From an uncultured Pelagibacteraceae bacterium (GTDB lineage Bacteria; Pseudomonadota; Alphaproteobacteria; Pelagibacterales; Pelagibacteraceae), in NCBI GenBank assembly GCA_902567235.1, contig CACFLX010000001.1:62001-126000 (forward strand): DNA of 64,000 nt, written 5' to 3'. Shown piece after piece: positions 27,544 through 34,075 of this stretch (its first letter is position 1; every line of letters starts with the position of its first letter). A program made the position numbers and the translations under genes. The notes beneath the pieces are model-generated. The model did no database searches. It was not told where the DNA came from and saw only the letters and a program-made list of their open reading frames with translations.

Positions 27544-27795
27544 ATGTATTATGTTTATTTAATCATAACTAAAAACAAAAAAAGAACAATTTCTTATGTT
27601 GGATATACAAATAACTTAGTAAATAGAATTGATTTACATAATTCATCAAAAGGTGCAAAATTTACAAAGGGAAGAAAATGGAAATTAATTTATTATAAAA
27701 AATTTAGTAAAAAGAGCATTGCTATGAAAGAAGAATATAAGTTAAAAAAAAATTATAAATTAAGAAAAAAAATTAAATTAGGATTAAAGATTTGA
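27544..27795 (+). CDS. GIY-YIG domain protein
   Basis: An 83-residue single-domain GIY-YIG nuclease-fold protein of the UPF0213/YhbQ-type: MYYVYLIITKN and SYVGYTNNLVNRIDLHNSSKGAKFTKGRKWKLIYYKKF carry the Tyr-Val-Tyr / Val-Gly-Tyr pair, the catalytic Arg and the KGAKFTKGR loop, with a later Glu in AMKEEYKLK. Very basic C-terminus. Sitting inside a sugar gene run, its stop overlaps the next gene's TTG start. Whether it cuts DNA or has a housekeeping role is unknown. Confidence 0.82.
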   Translation: MYYVYLIITKNKKRTISYVGYTNNLVNRIDLHNSSKGAKFTKGRKWKLIYYKKFSKKSIAMKEEYKLKKNYKLRKKIKLGLKI

Positions 27796-29924
27796 AAATT
27801 TCAATACTATTACCTTATAAAGAAAATTTTTCTCCTGCGTATGCAGGAGCTGTATCACTTTTTATTAATGATACTTTAAAAATAAGTAAATACAAAAAAA
27901 ATACTACTGTATTTGGAAATACTGATTATAGAAACAAGTTTAAACTTAAATATGTAAATATACCTTTGCATAAGTTAATTTTTCAAAGTCAAAATAAAAA
28001 ATATGTTGAAGAGTTTGCAAAATTAGAAAAAAAAAGAAATTCTGATTTAATTGAACTTCATAATAGGCCTATTTATTTAACATATCTAACAAATAAATTA
28101 AAAAATAAAACTTACATTTTATATTTTCATAATGATCCTCTAACTATGAGTGGATCAAAAAGTATATCTGAAAGAATATTTTTATTAAAAAATTGTTTTA
28201 AAATTATTTTTAATAGCAATTGGTCTAAAAGAAGATTCTTGGAAGGAATGAAAAGTGACTATATTAATAGTGAAAAACTTGTTGTTATTAACCAATCTGC
28301 CAAAAAAAATAAAATAAATTTAAATAAAAAAAGAAAAATTATAACTTTTGTAGGTAAATTAAATAAATCCAAAGGTTATGACTTATTTGGTAAAGCTATA
28401 GTTAAAATATTAAACAAATATAATGACTGGACATCAATAGTTATTGGTGATGAACCACGAGATCAACTTTTCTTCCATCACAAAAACCTAATTAAGTTAG
28501 GGTTCAAAAAGCATAATGATGTCTTAGATGTATATAAAAAAAGTTCTATTGCAGTAGTTTGTTCAAGATGGGAAGAGCCATTTGGTAGAACAAGTTTAGA
28601 GGCATCGTCTAATGGTTGCGCAGTTATTATTAGTAATAGAGGTGGATTACCAGAAACTATTACAAATGGTATTATTTTAAAAAAATTAGACGTTAAAAAT
28701 ATTTATAAGGAAATTGAATATTTAATTAAAAACACTAAACAAAGAAAAAAGCTTCAAAAATTATCATTAAAAAACTTTTTTTTATCTCATCAATTTGTTT
28801 CTAAAAGTATTGATCAAATCAGAGATCAAAAACTTATATTAAGTAAAAATATAAATTTATATCCTCAAAAAAAATCTTTAAGAATTTTACATATAACAAA
28901 TTTTAATGAGAGACATAACGGAAGATTATTTTTTAATACAGGAAGGCGAATAAACAATGGTTTTATAAGATTGGGTAATAGTGTTTTGGAGTTTAGTGAT
29001 AGGGATATACAAAAACATTATAAAACTTATACAGATATATCAGGCGCTAAGTCTTTGAATGAAAAATTAAAAAAAACTTGTTATAATTATAAACCTGATC
29101 TTGTAGTTTTGGGTCATGCAGATTTAATTTCTAGTGATATGCTAGGTGAACTAAAAGATGAATATCCGTATTTAAAAATTGCACAATGGTTTCTAGATCC
29201 ACTTAATAAAAATGGACCTGATTATTTTAAAAATAAAAGTAGAATATTAGATAAATCAGAGTTTTTAGATGCTAATTTTATTACAACAAGTCCTGATGTG
29301 CTTAACTTTCTCCCAAGAAATGTTAAAAATTATTTTATACCAAATCCATCAGATTTATCATTTGAAACTTTAAACAATTACAATCATGACTGCTCAAATG
29401 ATGTATTTTTTGCATTAAGTCATGGTGTACATAGAGGAAGCTTAAAGTCGAGAACTGTTGATGATAGAGAGATATTTATAAAAAAGCTGATAGAAAAGTC
29501 TAAAGATATAAAATTTGATATTTTTGGTATTAACAAAGTTCAGCCAATATGGGCAGATCAATATTTCAAAACTATTTCTAATTCAAAAATGGGTTTAAAC
29601 TTAAGTAGGGGTTTGCCAATAAAATATTATAGTAGTGACAGAATTACTCAAATTACAGGTAATGGATTGGTGACTTTAATTGATGAAAAAACTGGTTATA
29701 GAGATTTTTTTAATGATAAGGAAATGATTTTTTATAAAAATTTATCTGATCTGTCAGAAAAAATATCAAAGATAAGTCAAGATGAAAAACTAAGAAGATA
29801 TATTGGTAAGAATGGTAAAGAAAAATATTTAAAATATTTTAATTCAAATTTAGTTGCAAAATTTATTATTAATAAAACCCTAGATATTAATAAAAATAAT
29901 AAATTTTTATGGCATAATGAATAA
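27792..29924 (+). CDS. Two-domain glycosyltransferase (GT4-like plus CgeB-like)
   Basis: A 710-residue protein made of two glycosyltransferase halves. Residues about 1-350 are GT4-like: TFVGKLNKSKGYDLFGKAI, then VCSRWEEPFGRTSLEASSNG and IISNRGGLPETI (EX7E region). Residues about 360-710 restart with LRILHITNFNERHNGRLFFNTGRR and carry a Glyco_trans_1_2/CgeB-type end (FDIFGINKVQPIWADQYFK, GLPIKYYSSDRITQITGNG). It starts with TTG overlapping the GIY-YIG stop; no nearer ATG fits the conserved start KISILLPYKENFSP. Likely adds two sugars to a surface glycan. Confidence 0.8.
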   Translation: MKISILLPYKENFSPAYAGAVSLFINDTLKISKYKKNTTVFGNTDYRNKFKLKYVNIPLHKLIFQSQNKKYVEEFAKLEKKRNSDLIELHNRPIYLTYLTNKLKNKTYILYFHNDPLTMSGSKSISERIFLLKNCFKIIFNSNWSKRRFLEGMKSDYINSEKLVVINQSAKKNKINLNKKRKIITFVGKLNKSKGYDLFGKAIVKILNKYNDWTSIVIGDEPRDQLFFHHKNLIKLGFKKHNDVLDVYKKSSIAVVCSRWEEPFGRTSLEASSNGCAVIISNRGGLPETITNGIILKKLDVKNIYKEIEYLIKNTKQRKKLQKLSLKNFFLSHQFVSKSIDQIRDQKLILSKNINLYPQKKSLRILHITNFNERHNGRLFFNTGRRINNGFIRLGNSVLEFSDRDIQKHYKTYTDISGAKSLNEKLKKTCYNYKPDLVVLGHADLISSDMLGELKDEYPYLKIAQWFLDPLNKNGPDYFKNKSRILDKSEFLDANFITTSPDVLNFLPRNVKNYFIPNPSDLSFETLNNYNHDCSNDVFFALSHGVHRGSLKSRTVDDREIFIKKLIEKSKDIKFDIFGINKVQPIWADQYFKTISNSKMGLNLSRGLPIKYYSSDRITQITGNGLVTLIDEKTGYRDFFNDKEMIFYKNLSDLSEKISKISQDEKLRRYIGKNGKEKYLKYFNSNLVAKFIINKTLDINKNNKFLWHNE

Positions 29925-30787
29925 TGTTTTCTATAATCATACCTTCGCTAAATAATTTGGACTATCTTAAATTATGTATAAAAAGTATTAAAAATAATTC
30001 ATATCTTAATCATGAAATAATTATTCATGTAAACCAAGGTATTGATGGATCTTTAGAATTTTTAAAGAAAGAAAATATAAAATTTAGCTATACAAAATAT
30101 AATGCAGGTATATGTGAAGGTGTTAATTTAGCAGCTCAACTATCTACAACAAATTACATTCTTTATGCTCATGATGATTTTTATTTCTGTCCAGGTTGGG
30201 ATACTGCTTTAGTTAATGAACTAAAAAATTTAAATAATAATTTATTTTACTTTTCTGGCACTATGATTCAAAATGGACAAGTCGAATTGGATTGCGGATC
30301 TTCTTTATATGATTTTAATGAAAAAAAATTATTAAATGAATATAAAAATATAAAATTTCATGATTTTCAAGGATCTACATGGGCACCACATTTAATACAT
30401 AAAGATTTATGGAATAAAGTTGGCGGCTTCAGTGAAGAATATTTCCCTGGTACTGGCTCTGATCCAGATTTAAATATGAAATTATGGAACGAAGGTGTTA
30501 GAATTTTTAAAGGTCTGCAACAGTGTAAAGTTTATCATTTTGGTTCTATAGTCACTAGACAAAAGGAAAAAAAATTTAATACAATTACTGAAAGTGGTAG
30601 CAAAGGCTCTAAACTTTTCCTTATTAAGTGGGGCATTTCAATAAAGTTTTTCAAAAAATATTTTTTAAGATCTGATACAATTTTTCTTGGACCTCTAAGT
30701 GAACCTAGAAAAAATTTCAGTTATTTCTTTGATTTAATTATTTGTAAATTATATATTTTTTACTTAAAAATATTTTTTAAATCTTAA
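29924..30787 (+). CDS. Family 2 glycosyltransferase
   Basis: A 287-residue GT-A-fold enzyme: FSIIIPSLNNLDYLKLCIKSI at the start, the DxD-like AHDDFYFCPGWD (about residues 83-94), and a later FPGTGSDPDLNMKLWNEG acceptor-side motif. It overlaps the previous gene by one base (TAATG) and is the last gene of the island. Its 3' end overlaps the oppositely oriented recombinase gene by 11 bases. Sugar donor unknown. Confidence 0.85.
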   Translation: MFSIIIPSLNNLDYLKLCIKSIKNNSYLNHEIIIHVNQGIDGSLEFLKKENIKFSYTKYNAGICEGVNLAAQLSTTNYILYAHDDFYFCPGWDTALVNELKNLNNNLFYFSGTMIQNGQVELDCGSSLYDFNEKKLLNEYKNIKFHDFQGSTWAPHLIHKDLWNKVGGFSEEYFPGTGSDPDLNMKLWNEGVRIFKGLQQCKVYHFGSIVTRQKEKKFNTITESGSKGSKLFLIKWGISIKFFKKYFLRSDTIFLGPLSEPRKNFSYFFDLIICKLYIFYLKIFFKS

Positions 30788-31694
30788 TTTTATTTAAAGC
30801 ATTATTTTTGAATAAATTAGCTTCTTGAATATATCTTCTTACCATTTGTGTGGTTTTGTGACCTGTCATTGCCATTATATTTCTTTCTTCTGCACCAAAT
30901 TCTGCAGCTGAAGTTGCAAATCCCGATCTAAGACTATGACCGCCATATTTATTTGCATCAAAACCTGAGAGTGATAAGTATTTTTTTATAATTAGAGCAA
31001 CACTTTTATCTGATATCCCGAAAACTTTACCTGATTTCATTTCTGAAAAATTAATCCAATCTTTTAATTTTGTAACCGGACAAAAAATTTTGTTGTCAAA
31101 GTAGGGGATAGCTTTTATCATACCTTCACCAGATTGATCAGTTTTTGATCTCTTAATAAATATTTTTACTCCTTCATTTACAAATTCTAGATCATCATAA
31201 TCAATATTTACCAATTCTGACCTTCTAAAGCCTCCTGAAAATCCAATAAGTATAAGCGCTTTATCTCTAAGTTGTTTTTTTTCAGGAAGATTAATTTCAT
31301 CAATTTTATTAATTATTGTTTTTAAATCATTGATTAATATAGGTTTTTTTGCTTTTTGATTACTTCCTTTTACCCTCTTTATACCATGCAAATTCTCCAT
31401 AATAATTGGGTGTTTTGTATCTAAATAATGCCCTTTCAACTTATGAATCACACTAATTGAAGCTATCCTTCTCTTTAATGTGCTAAATTTTGAGTTAGCC
31501 GACAAGTGGGTTAGGTATAATGCTAAAATTTTGGGCTCTGTTGGGATTGAACTTAATCCATTTTTAATACAGAATCTTGAAAAATCTTTAAAATCTGCCT
31601 GATAAGCTCTTAAGGTATTAGAAGCCTTTGAGCTTCTAAGGTTTTTTAAAGTTTCTAATTCGAGACTTTTTAAATCTGTTATAAGTTCATTCAT
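30777..31694 (-). CDS. Orphan tyrosine recombinase/integrase
   Basis: A 305-residue tyrosine recombinase with an N-terminal SAM-like core-binding domain (about 20-100, SNTLRAYQADFKDFSRFC) and a C-terminal catalytic domain. Catalytic residues are visible: Arg in GFRRSELVNI, HxxR in GGHSLRSGF, His in TGHKTTQM, and the nucleophile Tyr in VRRYIQEA. The relatives I recall from this type are orphan integrases on chromosomes and plasmids rather than classic XerC/XerD. It could drive island integration or chromosome resolution. A strong promoter and a 9-7-9 inverted repeat lie directly upstream. Confidence 0.93.
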   Translation of the reverse strand: MNELITDLKSLELETLKNLRSSKASNTLRAYQADFKDFSRFCIKNGLSSIPTEPKILALYLTHLSANSKFSTLKRRIASISVIHKLKGHYLDTKHPIIMENLHGIKRVKGSNQKAKKPILINDLKTIINKIDEINLPEKKQLRDKALILIGFSGGFRRSELVNIDYDDLEFVNEGVKIFIKRSKTDQSGEGMIKAIPYFDNKIFCPVTKLKDWINFSEMKSGKVFGISDKSVALIIKKYLSLSGFDANKYGGHSLRSGFATSAAEFGAEERNIMAMTGHKTTQMVRRYIQEANLFKNNALNKIKI

Positions 31695-31700
31695 ATAATT

Positions 31701-31725
31701 TTCCGATAACCATTAATTATCGGAA
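31701..31725. repeat. Perfect 9-bp inverted repeat with 7-bp spacer (candidate recombinase core site or operator)
   Basis: Left arm TTCCGATAA (31701-31709), spacer CCATTAA, right arm TTATCGGAA (31717-31725). The arms are perfect and match the ...ATAA / TTAT... inner ends seen in dif-type sites, though dif has a 6-base spacer. It lies between the integrase -10 element and its ATG, so it covers the expected transcription start. It could equally be an autoregulatory operator or a 5' leader hairpin. Confidence 0.6.
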
Positions 31726-31754
31726 CTTATATATTAGGTGATTTTTATTGTCAA
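31726..31754 (-). promoter_or_regulatory. Sigma-70 promoter of the tyrosine recombinase
   Basis: On the minus strand TTGACA (31749-31754, perfect -35) is followed after exactly 17 bases by TATAAG (31726-31731, five of six -10 bases). Transcription would begin inside the adjacent inverted repeat. It is the best consensus promoter I noticed in the window. Confidence 0.7.
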
Positions 31755-31773: not shown

Positions 31774-31950
31774 ATGAGTTCATTTAATGGAGAAATTCCT
31801 GCAATATGGTTTTTAATAAGCTCAATTGGCTTTATTATATTAAGTTTAATTCAATATCGAAATACTGGTAAAAGCATAAATACAATATTTTTGTCTATTA
31901 TGGCGATTATCTTCTTTTTAAGTTACATAATTCTAATGATTCCGCGCTAA
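31774..31950 (+). CDS. Small two-span membrane protein, unknown
   Basis: A 58-residue protein starting at the ATG at 31774 (a GTG at 31738 is in frame but lies within the integrase promoter). Two hydrophobic spans (PAIWFLISSIGFIILSLI and TIFLSIMAIIFFLSYIILMI) flank a short positively charged loop (QYRNTGKS). Nothing recognisable beyond a membrane hairpin. Divergent from the integrase. Confidence 0.55.
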   Translation: MSSFNGEIPAIWFLISSIGFIILSLIQYRNTGKSINTIFLSIMAIIFFLSYIILMIPR

Positions 31951-32019: not shown

Positions 32020-32184
32020 ATGCCAAAATATATATTAATTGGACTATTGGTCGTTATTGGAACATTCATGATAATGAATTACTGGCCAAAAATAAAGGAA
32101 CAAACCAAAAATCGAATATTAATGCTTATATTTGGTGCATTTTTTCTCAGTATTTTTGTATTGCTAATACTCTTAATGTTTTAG
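32020..32184 (+). CDS. Small two-span membrane protein, unknown
   Basis: A 54-codon frame: a first span (about residues 4-20, YILIGLLVVIGTFMIM), a basic loop (NYWPKIKEQTKNR), and a second span (about 34-54, LMLIFGAFFLSIFVLLILL). Same hairpin architecture and orientation as the gene 69 bases upstream, which supports that both are real. Homology not recognised, no clear ribosome-binding site. Confidence 0.45.
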   Translation: MPKYILIGLLVVIGTFMIMNYWPKIKEQTKNRILMLIFGAFFLSIFVLLILLMF

Positions 32185-32283
32185 TTGAACTTTTCCCCAC
32201 TATCCACAGTTGTGAAAAACACAGTAAATTCAACAATAAAGTGATACATACAACCTTAGACGTCTGATAATGTTAAAAATGAA

Positions 32284-32465
32284 TTAAGAGGCAACTCTTA
32301 ACTGGCCAATTGGGGAAAAGCCGAGAGGTTCAAGCCCAGAGGGCAGAAAGTTCTGCAAAGCAGCGCTAAACATGCAGAGCGAAGGACACGGCGGTAGCGC
32401 CTACAACGACGTGTCAAAACTACTGTTCTTTGCACCGTAAAAAGTGCAAGGAAACAGGGGTTTTT
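32284..32465 (+). ncRNA. Candidate structured small RNA with terminator
   Basis: This stretch is visibly far richer in G and C than the surrounding DNA and contains no convincing gene. Helices seen by eye are TTAAGAG/CTCTTAA closed by a GCAA tetraloop (32284-32301), GCAGA/TCTGC (32343-32356), GACACG/CGTGTC (32385-32415, with a smaller inner stem), and a roughly 13-pair terminal hairpin (32423-32457) followed shortly by five T's. The T-run on this strand sets the orientation. It does not match tmRNA, RNase P, SRP or 6S features I know. The 5' end is not determined. Confidence 0.45.
32423..32465 (+). terminator. Rho-independent-type hairpin and T-run
   Basis: CTG-TTCTTTGCAC pairs with GTGCAAGGAA-CAG around the loop CGTAAAAA, with one G-U pair and one bulged A, then GGG and TTTTT. 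It ends ten bases before the MGMT start codon, so it probably terminates the upstream RNA or attenuates the MGMT gene. Confidence 0.55.
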
Positions 32466-33232: not shown

Positions 33233-34075
33233 CTACTTAATATTAATTTCTCTTCTAAATATATAAATACCTGAGGCTATAATAATGAATAATCCTAAAA
33301 AAGTCCAAAGATCAGGGAAGTCTTTAAACACATAGTAGCCTAATATTATGTTGGTTATAATCTCAAAATATCCAAAAGGAGCTAATTTAGAAGCATCTGC
33401 ATACCTTAATGAATAAATTAGTAGAATATGTCCTAAACAGGCAAAAATACCCATAATAGCGAGCCATAACCACTGTATATTTGTTGGATTAACCCAAACT
33501 ATTGGTACAAAGAATGTTGATACAGTGGCCCCTACTATTCCGGTTAACAAAAGAGTTAATAATGGATTGTCTGTTGAGTGAAGTTTTCTCGTAATTATTA
33601 AATAAATACCATAGAGACAACCTGTGCCTAAAGCTGCCATTGTTGCTAAATTAAATTCTATAAAACCAGGCCTAATAACAACTAAACTTCCAATAAATCC
33701 AACTATAACAGCTGTCCATCTTCTTATTCCAACTTTTTCACCTAATAAAATTGGAGATAATGCTGTCGTTACCAATGGGGCTACAAAAGCAAGTGTTAAA
33801 GCTTTAGCCATAGATATTACTGATATTGAATAAAAAAAACAAATATTAGCAGAAAAAAGAGTTAATCCTCTTAAAATTTGCAATTTAGGATTTTCAGACA
33901 AAGTTAAGTTTTTTCTAAAAAAAATAAACATAAAAGGTAATGTCCAAAAAACAGTAAAAAAATATCTAGCCCAAGTAATTTGAAAAAAAGATAATTCGGC
34001 TGACAGGTATTTTGCAATTGTATCCATAAAAGGCAAAATTGCCCAGGCTGACAAATTAAGAATAATTGCCTTCAT
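33233..34075 (-). CDS. EamA-family (DMT) permease
   Basis: A 280-residue protein with about ten membrane spans in two repeated EamA halves (first half around PFMDTIAKYLSAELSFFQITWARYFFTVFWTLPF, the second around GCLYGIYLIITRKLHSTDNPL). Such proteins export metabolites or amino acids; the substrate is not predictable. Overlaps the upstream AEC transporter gene by one base, so the two are co-transcribed. Confidence 0.85.
   Translation of the reverse strand: MKAIILNLSAWAILPFMDTIAKYLSAELSFFQITWARYFFTVFWTLPFMFIFFRKNLTLSENPKLQILRGLTLFSANICFFYSISVISMAKALTLAFVAPLVTTALSPILLGEKVGIRRWTAVIVGFIGSLVVIRPGFIEFNLATMAALGTGCLYGIYLIITRKLHSTDNPLLTLLLTGIVGATVSTFFVPIVWVNPTNIQWLWLAIMGIFACLGHILLIYSLRYADASKLAPFGYFEIITNIILGYYVFKDFPDLWTFLGLFIIIASGIYIFRREINIK

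Follow-up and report, generated by a model that had tools for sequence, protein, structure and literature searches.

The dif site of the XerC/XerD system is asymmetric. In streptococci and lactococci, a single recombinase, XerS, is paired with a site (difSL) that lies immediately adjacent to it (PMC5357621), and the arms of the earlier single-recombinase sites are described as only partially symmetric (PMC9765430). A single recombinase, XerL, is also described in the Legionellales, a group thought to be Xer-less (PMC9765430). For the SAR11 bacteria, a passage in Carnoy and Roten (2009) states that Pelagibacter ubique has no dif/Xer system (PMC2731167), and the word Pelagibacter is absent from the main text of Kono 2011 (PMC3025954). 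Among the open-licence PMC papers listed by literature searches, no title or abstract opening described such a system in SAR11 or Pelagibacter. One table of a sulfur-depletion proteome lists SAR11_1019 as 'xerD, Integrase/recombinase' (PMC5069961). From its distance to rpoC (SAR11_1122), we infer that this is the same gene as the recombinase described here.

We analysed a 64,000-base stretch of DNA from an uncultured Pelagibacteraceae bacterium (the window), in which a tyrosine recombinase gene is preceded by a dif-like inverted repeat. The window belongs to SAR11, and the closest named relatives of this DNA are Pelagibacteraceae. The gene and the repeat are very probably the two parts of a single-recombinase Xer/dif system that this SAR11 family carries, with plasmid ancestry and a presumed role in dimer resolution. 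This best reading of the locus runs against the 2009 passage on P. ubique (PMC2731167).

The site, its promoter and the recombinase

The features of the locus, all on the minus strand of the window, are as follows.

30777..31694, minus strand: predicted single-recombinase Xer-like tyrosine recombinase, 305 amino acids (ORF list, PF00589 match, catalytic R-K-H-R-H-Y present)
31701..31725, minus strand: dif-like site TTCCGATAA-TTAATGG-TTATCGGAA, a perfect 9-7-9 repeat (sequence, conservation, single copy)
31717..31725, minus strand: left arm TTCCGATAA, as read on the minus strand (sequence)
31710..31716, minus strand: central region TTAATGG, asymmetric (sequence, spacer counts over 135 sites)
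31701..31709, minus strand: right arm TTATCGGAA (sequence)
31726..31731, minus strand: -10 hexamer TATAAG, abutting the site (sequence)
31749..31754, minus strand: -35 hexamer TTGACA (sequence)

The original prediction of a perfect inverted repeat with a 7-base spacer behind a near-consensus promoter (TTGACA-17-TATAAG) agrees with the sequence at 31701-31725. The two hexamers are 17 bases apart and the -10 box touches the repeat. The distance from the repeat to the recombinase ATG, first given as 7 bases, is 6. Because the TTAATGG centre is asymmetric, the site has a direction. Two very short membrane-protein-like ORFs (31774-31950 and 32020-32184, plus strand) lie between the site and an IMES-2 RNA (RF02035, 156 bits), which is located some 550 bases away at 32277-32417 on the plus strand. 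In several loci the beginning of the second ORF (MPKYI...) recurs beside the site, divergent from the recombinase. Of 13 related loci tested for IMES-2, 6 have it less than 1 kb from the site.

Exact 9-7-9 repeats occur three times in the window. Repeats with gaps of 6-8 bases number 11, compared with an average of 5.3 over 10 resampled windows, and those with at least 3 G+C per arm number 2, against 0.4. We rejected these repeat statistics alone as proof, because a 64-kb AT-rich window is expected to hold such repeats. Conservation, not bare rarity, lifts the repeat above chance. The pattern GATAA-N7-TTATC was found upstream of the recombinase in 135 of 136 loci, which are not all independent because the two genome collections overlap in part (for example, L064 and L274 carry identical recombinases); the 80 genome-contig loci are the best 80 of 131. 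In the one exception (L105), the recombinase match begins only at residue 29. The exact 25-mer is kept in 87 of the 136 loci, where recombinase identities range from 56% to 100%. Conservation of the repeat beside the gene speaks for the original prediction. Over 79 loci, the commonest base averages 0.995 in the 25 site columns and 0.78 and 0.76 in the 45-base flanks. The spacer is TTAATGG in 101 and TTAATTG in 25 of the 135 sites. Other family members have a second site form with longer arms, approximately TTACTAAYGATAA-TTAATKG-TTATCAATAGTAA.

The site is present in single copy. The genome of the window contains one site at up to 3 mismatches. A search of 297 family genomes for the core GATAATTAANNGTTATC found exactly one match in 223 and two in none, and the reversed-core control gave 0 matches across the 297 genomes. 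Among family genomes at least 90% complete, the core was matched in 107 of 127, and PF00589 was sought in the 20 without a match. Four of these 20 have the recombinase with a spacer of TTTATTG (G082, G332, G208) or TTTATGG (G075). The remaining 16 of the 127, including G072 (99% complete) and G108 (96% complete), had neither the core site nor the recombinase; G230 and G344 of those 16 carry other integrases. The recombinase is present in all 10 single-contig family genomes listed. An extra, distant integrase of phage type was seen in G230, G344, G208, G028, G036 and G010, either alongside the Xer-like enzyme or in its place.

The window recombinase matches PF00589 (Phage_integrase; E 2e-17), and its family is clear from Pfam. 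The catalytic residues R-K-H-R-H-Y are invariant across 12 aligned sequences including the window recombinase. Its scores are far below the cut-offs of the models for XerC (TIGR02224, 63.5 bits against 335.15), XerD (TIGR02225, 67.1 against 329.6), XerS (NF003462, 56.9 against 267) and archaeal XerA (NF040815, 69.4 against 220). The match to the XerH chain 5jjv (E 3.2e-05) is weaker than that to XerD and similar to that to Cre. The enzyme is the sole PF00589 protein of the window's genome (89.8% complete), and the complete genome G012 also has one PF00589 protein. The check for a second tyrosine recombinase was therefore negative in both genomes, which together with the conserved, linked, single-copy repeat supports the one-recombinase, dif-like part of the original prediction. 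Elsewhere in the window, an 83-residue ORF (27544-27795, plus strand), which we take to resemble a GIY-YIG nuclease domain, lies within a stretch of sugar-transferase-like genes.

We compared the window's own family (f1, 37 genomes) with a sister family of the same order (f2, 24 genomes). In f1, the window-type recombinase is found in 27 and a PF00589 match in 28 of the 37 genomes, and G028, G036 and G010 have other integrases or fragments. An XerC/XerD-like match was found in none of the 37 f1 genomes, whose top PF00589 match is 82.9 bits. Of the 24 f2 genomes, 18 have two PF00589 matches, five have a single match and one has three; the main matches listed score 133-163 bits. For example, one f2 protein of XerD type is best matched by the XerD model (326.1, just below the cut-off of 329.6) and one of XerC type by the XerC model (314.8, just below 335.15). 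The core pattern occurs in 1 of the 24 f2 genomes, with the spacer TTAACTG. FtsK-gamma is present in 49 of the 61 f1 and f2 genomes, including the window's own and G012.

Chromosomal position and polar motifs

Judged by base composition, the site is located at the replication terminus, where the GC skew switches. In the complete genome G012, the sole chromosome scanned whole for skew (5000 bases masked), the cumulative GC-skew maximum at 615,774 is 1.8 kb from the core site (617,610-617,626), and the TA minimum is at 620,847. In the sampled genomes G063, G103 and G086, whose records have different start points, the end of the G-rich arc with the best fit coincides with the site to within one sampling step, with arcs ending 100-300 kb beyond the site fitting almost equally well in G063. 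All 61 loci that extend at least 3 kb in both directions show a higher skew upstream of the site than on the side of the gene. In the 15 genomes where one contig holds both rpoB and the module, 72-108 kb separate the two (distances worked by hand), and the orientation of the site relative to the replication arms is constant in G012, G063, G103, G086 and the window.

AGTAGGG is a candidate FtsK-guiding motif, since it is polar and switches at the site. Its copies in the window (toward:away 4:0 and 3:0 on the two sides) are the following.

29604..29610, plus strand: AGTAGGG, candidate FtsK-guiding motif, directed at the site (motif scan)
1855, 7985 and 31100, plus strand: further AGTAGGG copies, that at 31100 within the recombinase gene
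33530..33536, minus strand: AGTAGGG on the opposite side, directed at the site and located within the transporter-like gene 33233-34075
41723 and 58419, minus strand: further AGTAGGG copies (motif scan)

Among the 7-mers with at least 30 copies in G012, AGTAGGG (36:5) and GAGTAGG (54:8) have the top toward-site bias; in comparison, 105 letter rearrangements of the two are pooled at 61% toward the site. Three genomes outside the motif discovery gave 32:7 for AGTAGGG and 31:7 for GAGTAGG. In the flanks of 79 loci, AGTAGGG is found at 70:2 and 84:3 (19:1 on the gene side minus the recombinase gene), with the upstream copies mostly at one homologous position in the transporter-like gene. In 6 of these 79 loci a second loose GATAA-N7-TTATC core is present, and the first core, adjacent to the gene, served as the reference. 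At the glycine codon needed to complete the motif, 74 of the 78 homologous transporter-like genes have GGG. A nearby glycine codon (residue 179) is GGG in 0 of 78, and GGG makes up 160 of 1314 glycine codons of this gene overall, with one other column at 26 of 75. We read the retention of the GGG codon as likely selection on DNA rather than protein.

Other motifs were also considered. An unbiased k-mer scan of the 79-locus flanks placed AGTAGGGG first among 8-mers by bias (56:0 in distinct contexts); in G012 it is 9:0, with only 9 copies. AGAAGGGG is as polar near the site as AGTAGGG, yet only 8:4 in G012. GGGATGG was 37:2 in the three sampled genomes, above AGTAGGG, and 11:1 on the gene side of the site, but we rejected it as a guide as it is non-polar upstream (1:1). 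The consensus sequences of KOPS from E. coli (GGGNAGGG) and of SRS from B. subtilis (GAGAAGGG) are both polar and were set aside for their few copies in G012 (9:2 and 11:2, respectively).

Exchange of the cassette and its plasmid and viral relatives

Sites containing TTCCGATAA were labelled type I and sites with any other arm type II. On a tree of 133 of the 136 recombinase rows (131 different; rows shorter than 280 residues or with unknown residues were excluded), the arm type changes once, on one branch (SH-aLRT 95), so the enzymes of each clade all have the arms of that clade. The rpoB tree covers 26 of 30 genomes, with no match in G000, G073 and G120 and the partial sequence of G083 dropped. 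On this tree the arm types change 8 times, at least 7 of them forced by supported branches, a count near that of shuffled labels (150 of 500 shuffles were as low). Holding type II together on the rpoB tree was rejected (p-AU 1.65e-86). The single split on the recombinase tree and the at least seven switches on the rpoB tree indicate that enzyme and site were exchanged together; on this phylogenetic evidence, the cassette is exchanged as a unit, in a fixed place. For example, G069 (type I) and G082 (type II) are separated by about 0.011 changes per RpoB site and have different cassettes. The exchange boundary is not visible in this pair because the upstream flanks diverged as well (58-84%). Between G112 and G064, the identity declines from 83-93% in the stretch 1-1.5 kb upstream through about 70% at the site to roughly 50% past the recombinase.

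Relatives of the recombinase at E 1e-20 were found in 1314 plasmid records, from which we examined 26 loci (14 of 15 listed rows and 12 of the 40 rows of a spread listing). GATAA-N5..9-TTATC lies within 250 bases upstream in 9 of the 26 and downstream in 0 of 26, and no upstream site of this kind was seen in the other 17. The distance from site to start is 21 to 162 bases, with the start of L331 estimated. A Niallia plasmid has type I arms (ACTTCCGATAA-TATATAG-TTATCGGAAGT) and a Spirosoma plasmid has type II arms (ATTACTATTGATAA-GTAAACC-TTATCAATAGTAAT). ParA/ParB or toxin-antitoxin genes are near the recombinase in 8 of the 26 plasmid stretches, and these neighbours suggest that the plasmid relatives serve multimer resolution. 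In a tree with one f2 row per locus, the SAR11 and plasmid enzymes, the latter picked by similarity, are separated from the f2 Xer proteins with a branch support of 100/100. Outside SAR11, 15 of 289 alphaproteobacterial genomes have a relative at E 1e-20, and a comparable upstream repeat was seen in 3 of 17 such loci (L316, L323 and L324) and was lacking in 14. The SAR11 cassette is probably of plasmid origin.

The site is also carried by viruses. At least 120 viral contigs contain TTCCGATAA-N7-TTATCGGAA, compared with 2 for the reversed arms. Among 75 site-bearing contigs examined of the at least 120, a recombinase of the window enzyme's family was found in 12, all with the site within 500 bases upstream, and the search gave no match in 63. 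Peptide patterns of the window protein confirmed no recombinase in the viral contigs, where more distant relatives were found beside sites; 15 phage records contain recombinase relatives, at 23-27% identity. The exact type I 25-mer had 0 matches in the viral contigs. For comparison, the full-arm site is present in 2 of 398 Pseudomonadota genomes, both SAR11. In three viral contigs, a type I left arm comes 2 bases after a full type II site.

L310, 4156-4180: full type II site, then type I left arm
L311, 13658-13682: full type II site, then type I left arm
L312, 1779-1803: full type II site, then type I left arm

The composite pattern of these contigs is TTCCGATAA-N7/8-TTATCAAA, and their pieces gave no recombinase match. 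In L389, L401 and L404, which gave no recombinase match either, the site lies between the small- and large-subunit terminase genes. It reads TTCCGATAA-TTAATTG-TTATC, with the right-arm end GGAA in L401 and L404 and GGAT in L389, and the complete sites of L401 and L404 are identical to the site of the SAR11 genome G069. L310, which has the large-subunit and portal genes, and L311, which has the small-subunit gene, are consistent with this gene order. Viral fragments with the site and no recombinase look like putative elements using the host's enzyme (IMEX), and L310, L311 and L312 are candidate phages integrating via the host enzyme.

Competition with dif-mimicking phages may drive the cassette swaps, which would be an addition to dimer resolution and not an alternative to it. 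Cassette swaps are frequent, viral fragments have full sites beside terminase genes, and one viral group joins a type II site to a type I arm. However, none of the 297 genomes has two core sites, so an integrated phage with a site at each end was not encountered. We regard this addition as rather unlikely.

Proposed function and comparison with known systems

In dimer resolution, the recombinase would bind the two inverted arms of the site. FtsK, translocating along AGTAGGG-like polar motifs, would join the two sites of the dimer at the division septum, and strand exchange over the 7-base spacer would convert the dimer into two monomers. The bound recombinase probably represses its own gene, because the site covers the start of its promoter. 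The plasmid-type enzyme seems to have replaced XerCD/dif in Pelagibacteraceae, and the enzyme-site pair was later swapped jointly between lineages. The original prediction had left open whether the system serves resolution or integration. Dimer resolution is favoured because of the terminus position, the fixed place and orientation, the converging motifs and the lack of a second copy, the last of which argues against integration.

The repeat could be a mere operator through which the recombinase or another dimeric protein regulates the gene, as it abuts the -10 box and, in almost every locus, directly precedes the gene. There is no need for an operator to conserve its spacer, yet TTAATGG is kept in 101 of 135 sites, and the plasmid sites are found at variable distances from the start (21 to 162 bases, the L331 start being estimated). 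The terminus location, the polar motifs, the single copy and the recombinase-less phage fragments with the site would also be unexplained. As the whole explanation, an operator is thus very improbable; an operator role may hold in addition to dimer resolution because the site sits on the promoter. We give the same slight weight to an integrase of a genomic island or prophage with the repeat as its attachment site. The relatives are plasmid-borne and one flank resembles a variable sugar-transferase region, judged from the ORF list, but the core never occurs twice in the 223 matching genomes, and both the place (72-108 kb from rpoB in 15 genomes) and the orientation to the replication arms (G012, G063, G103, G086 and the window) are constant. 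A 5' hairpin in the mRNA, suggested by the perfect inverted repeat right before the start codon, is the least credible reading, since plasmids and phage fragments carry these arms at some distance from a gene start, and since transcription, by the usual promoter geometry, starts within the left arm and would thus disrupt the hairpin.

For the single-recombinase Xer/dif system, we can propose a wider history to which we give even chances. XerCD/dif would have been discarded and a captured plasmid multimer-resolution cassette used in its place. Enzyme and cognate site would be inherited as a single unit, which would then have been swapped between lineages at least 7 times at the terminus under the pressure of dif-mimic phages, some with parts of both site types, that borrow the host enzyme. 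If the dimer-resolution reading is true, the ocean's most abundant bacteria retained dimer resolution with changed parts, and a short, recognisable sequence marks the place where SAR11 replication ends. Repeated swaps of enzyme and site may provide natural test pairs for recombinase specificity, and the viral fragments hint at how phages of the SAR11 group might integrate without their own integrase.

The SAR11 system shares with XerC/XerD-dif the protein family, the catalytic residues, the terminus location and FtsK-gamma. It differs in that XerC/XerD-dif uses two recombinases, and the window enzyme is far below the XerC and XerD cut-offs. AGTAGGG resembles the E. coli KOPS in behaviour. The plasmid recombinases of Niallia, Alicyclobacillus, Spirosoma and Protochlamydia (four aligned) are 33-44% identical to the window enzyme and have linked GATAA-N6/7-TTATC sites, some with the same arms as SAR11; they differ in being plasmid-borne, not at a chromosome terminus, and in their spacers. 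XerH/difH of Helicobacter and Campylobacter is alike in having one recombinase and a linked site, is itself described as FtsK-dependent, and shows a weak sequence relation to the window enzyme (the 5jjv match given above). XerS/difSL shares with SAR11 the single recombinase and the gene-adjacent site, whereas XerS is described with 356 amino acids and difSL with 31 bp and an 11-base centre (PMC5357621). Compared by description, XerL/dif of the Legionellales is the closest precedent, with a single recombinase in bacteria previously taken to be without Xer, inverted arms that are long and uninterrupted, and a plasmid-borne copy in Coxiella, although the site and the gene of L. pneumophila are more than 400 kb apart (PMC9765430).
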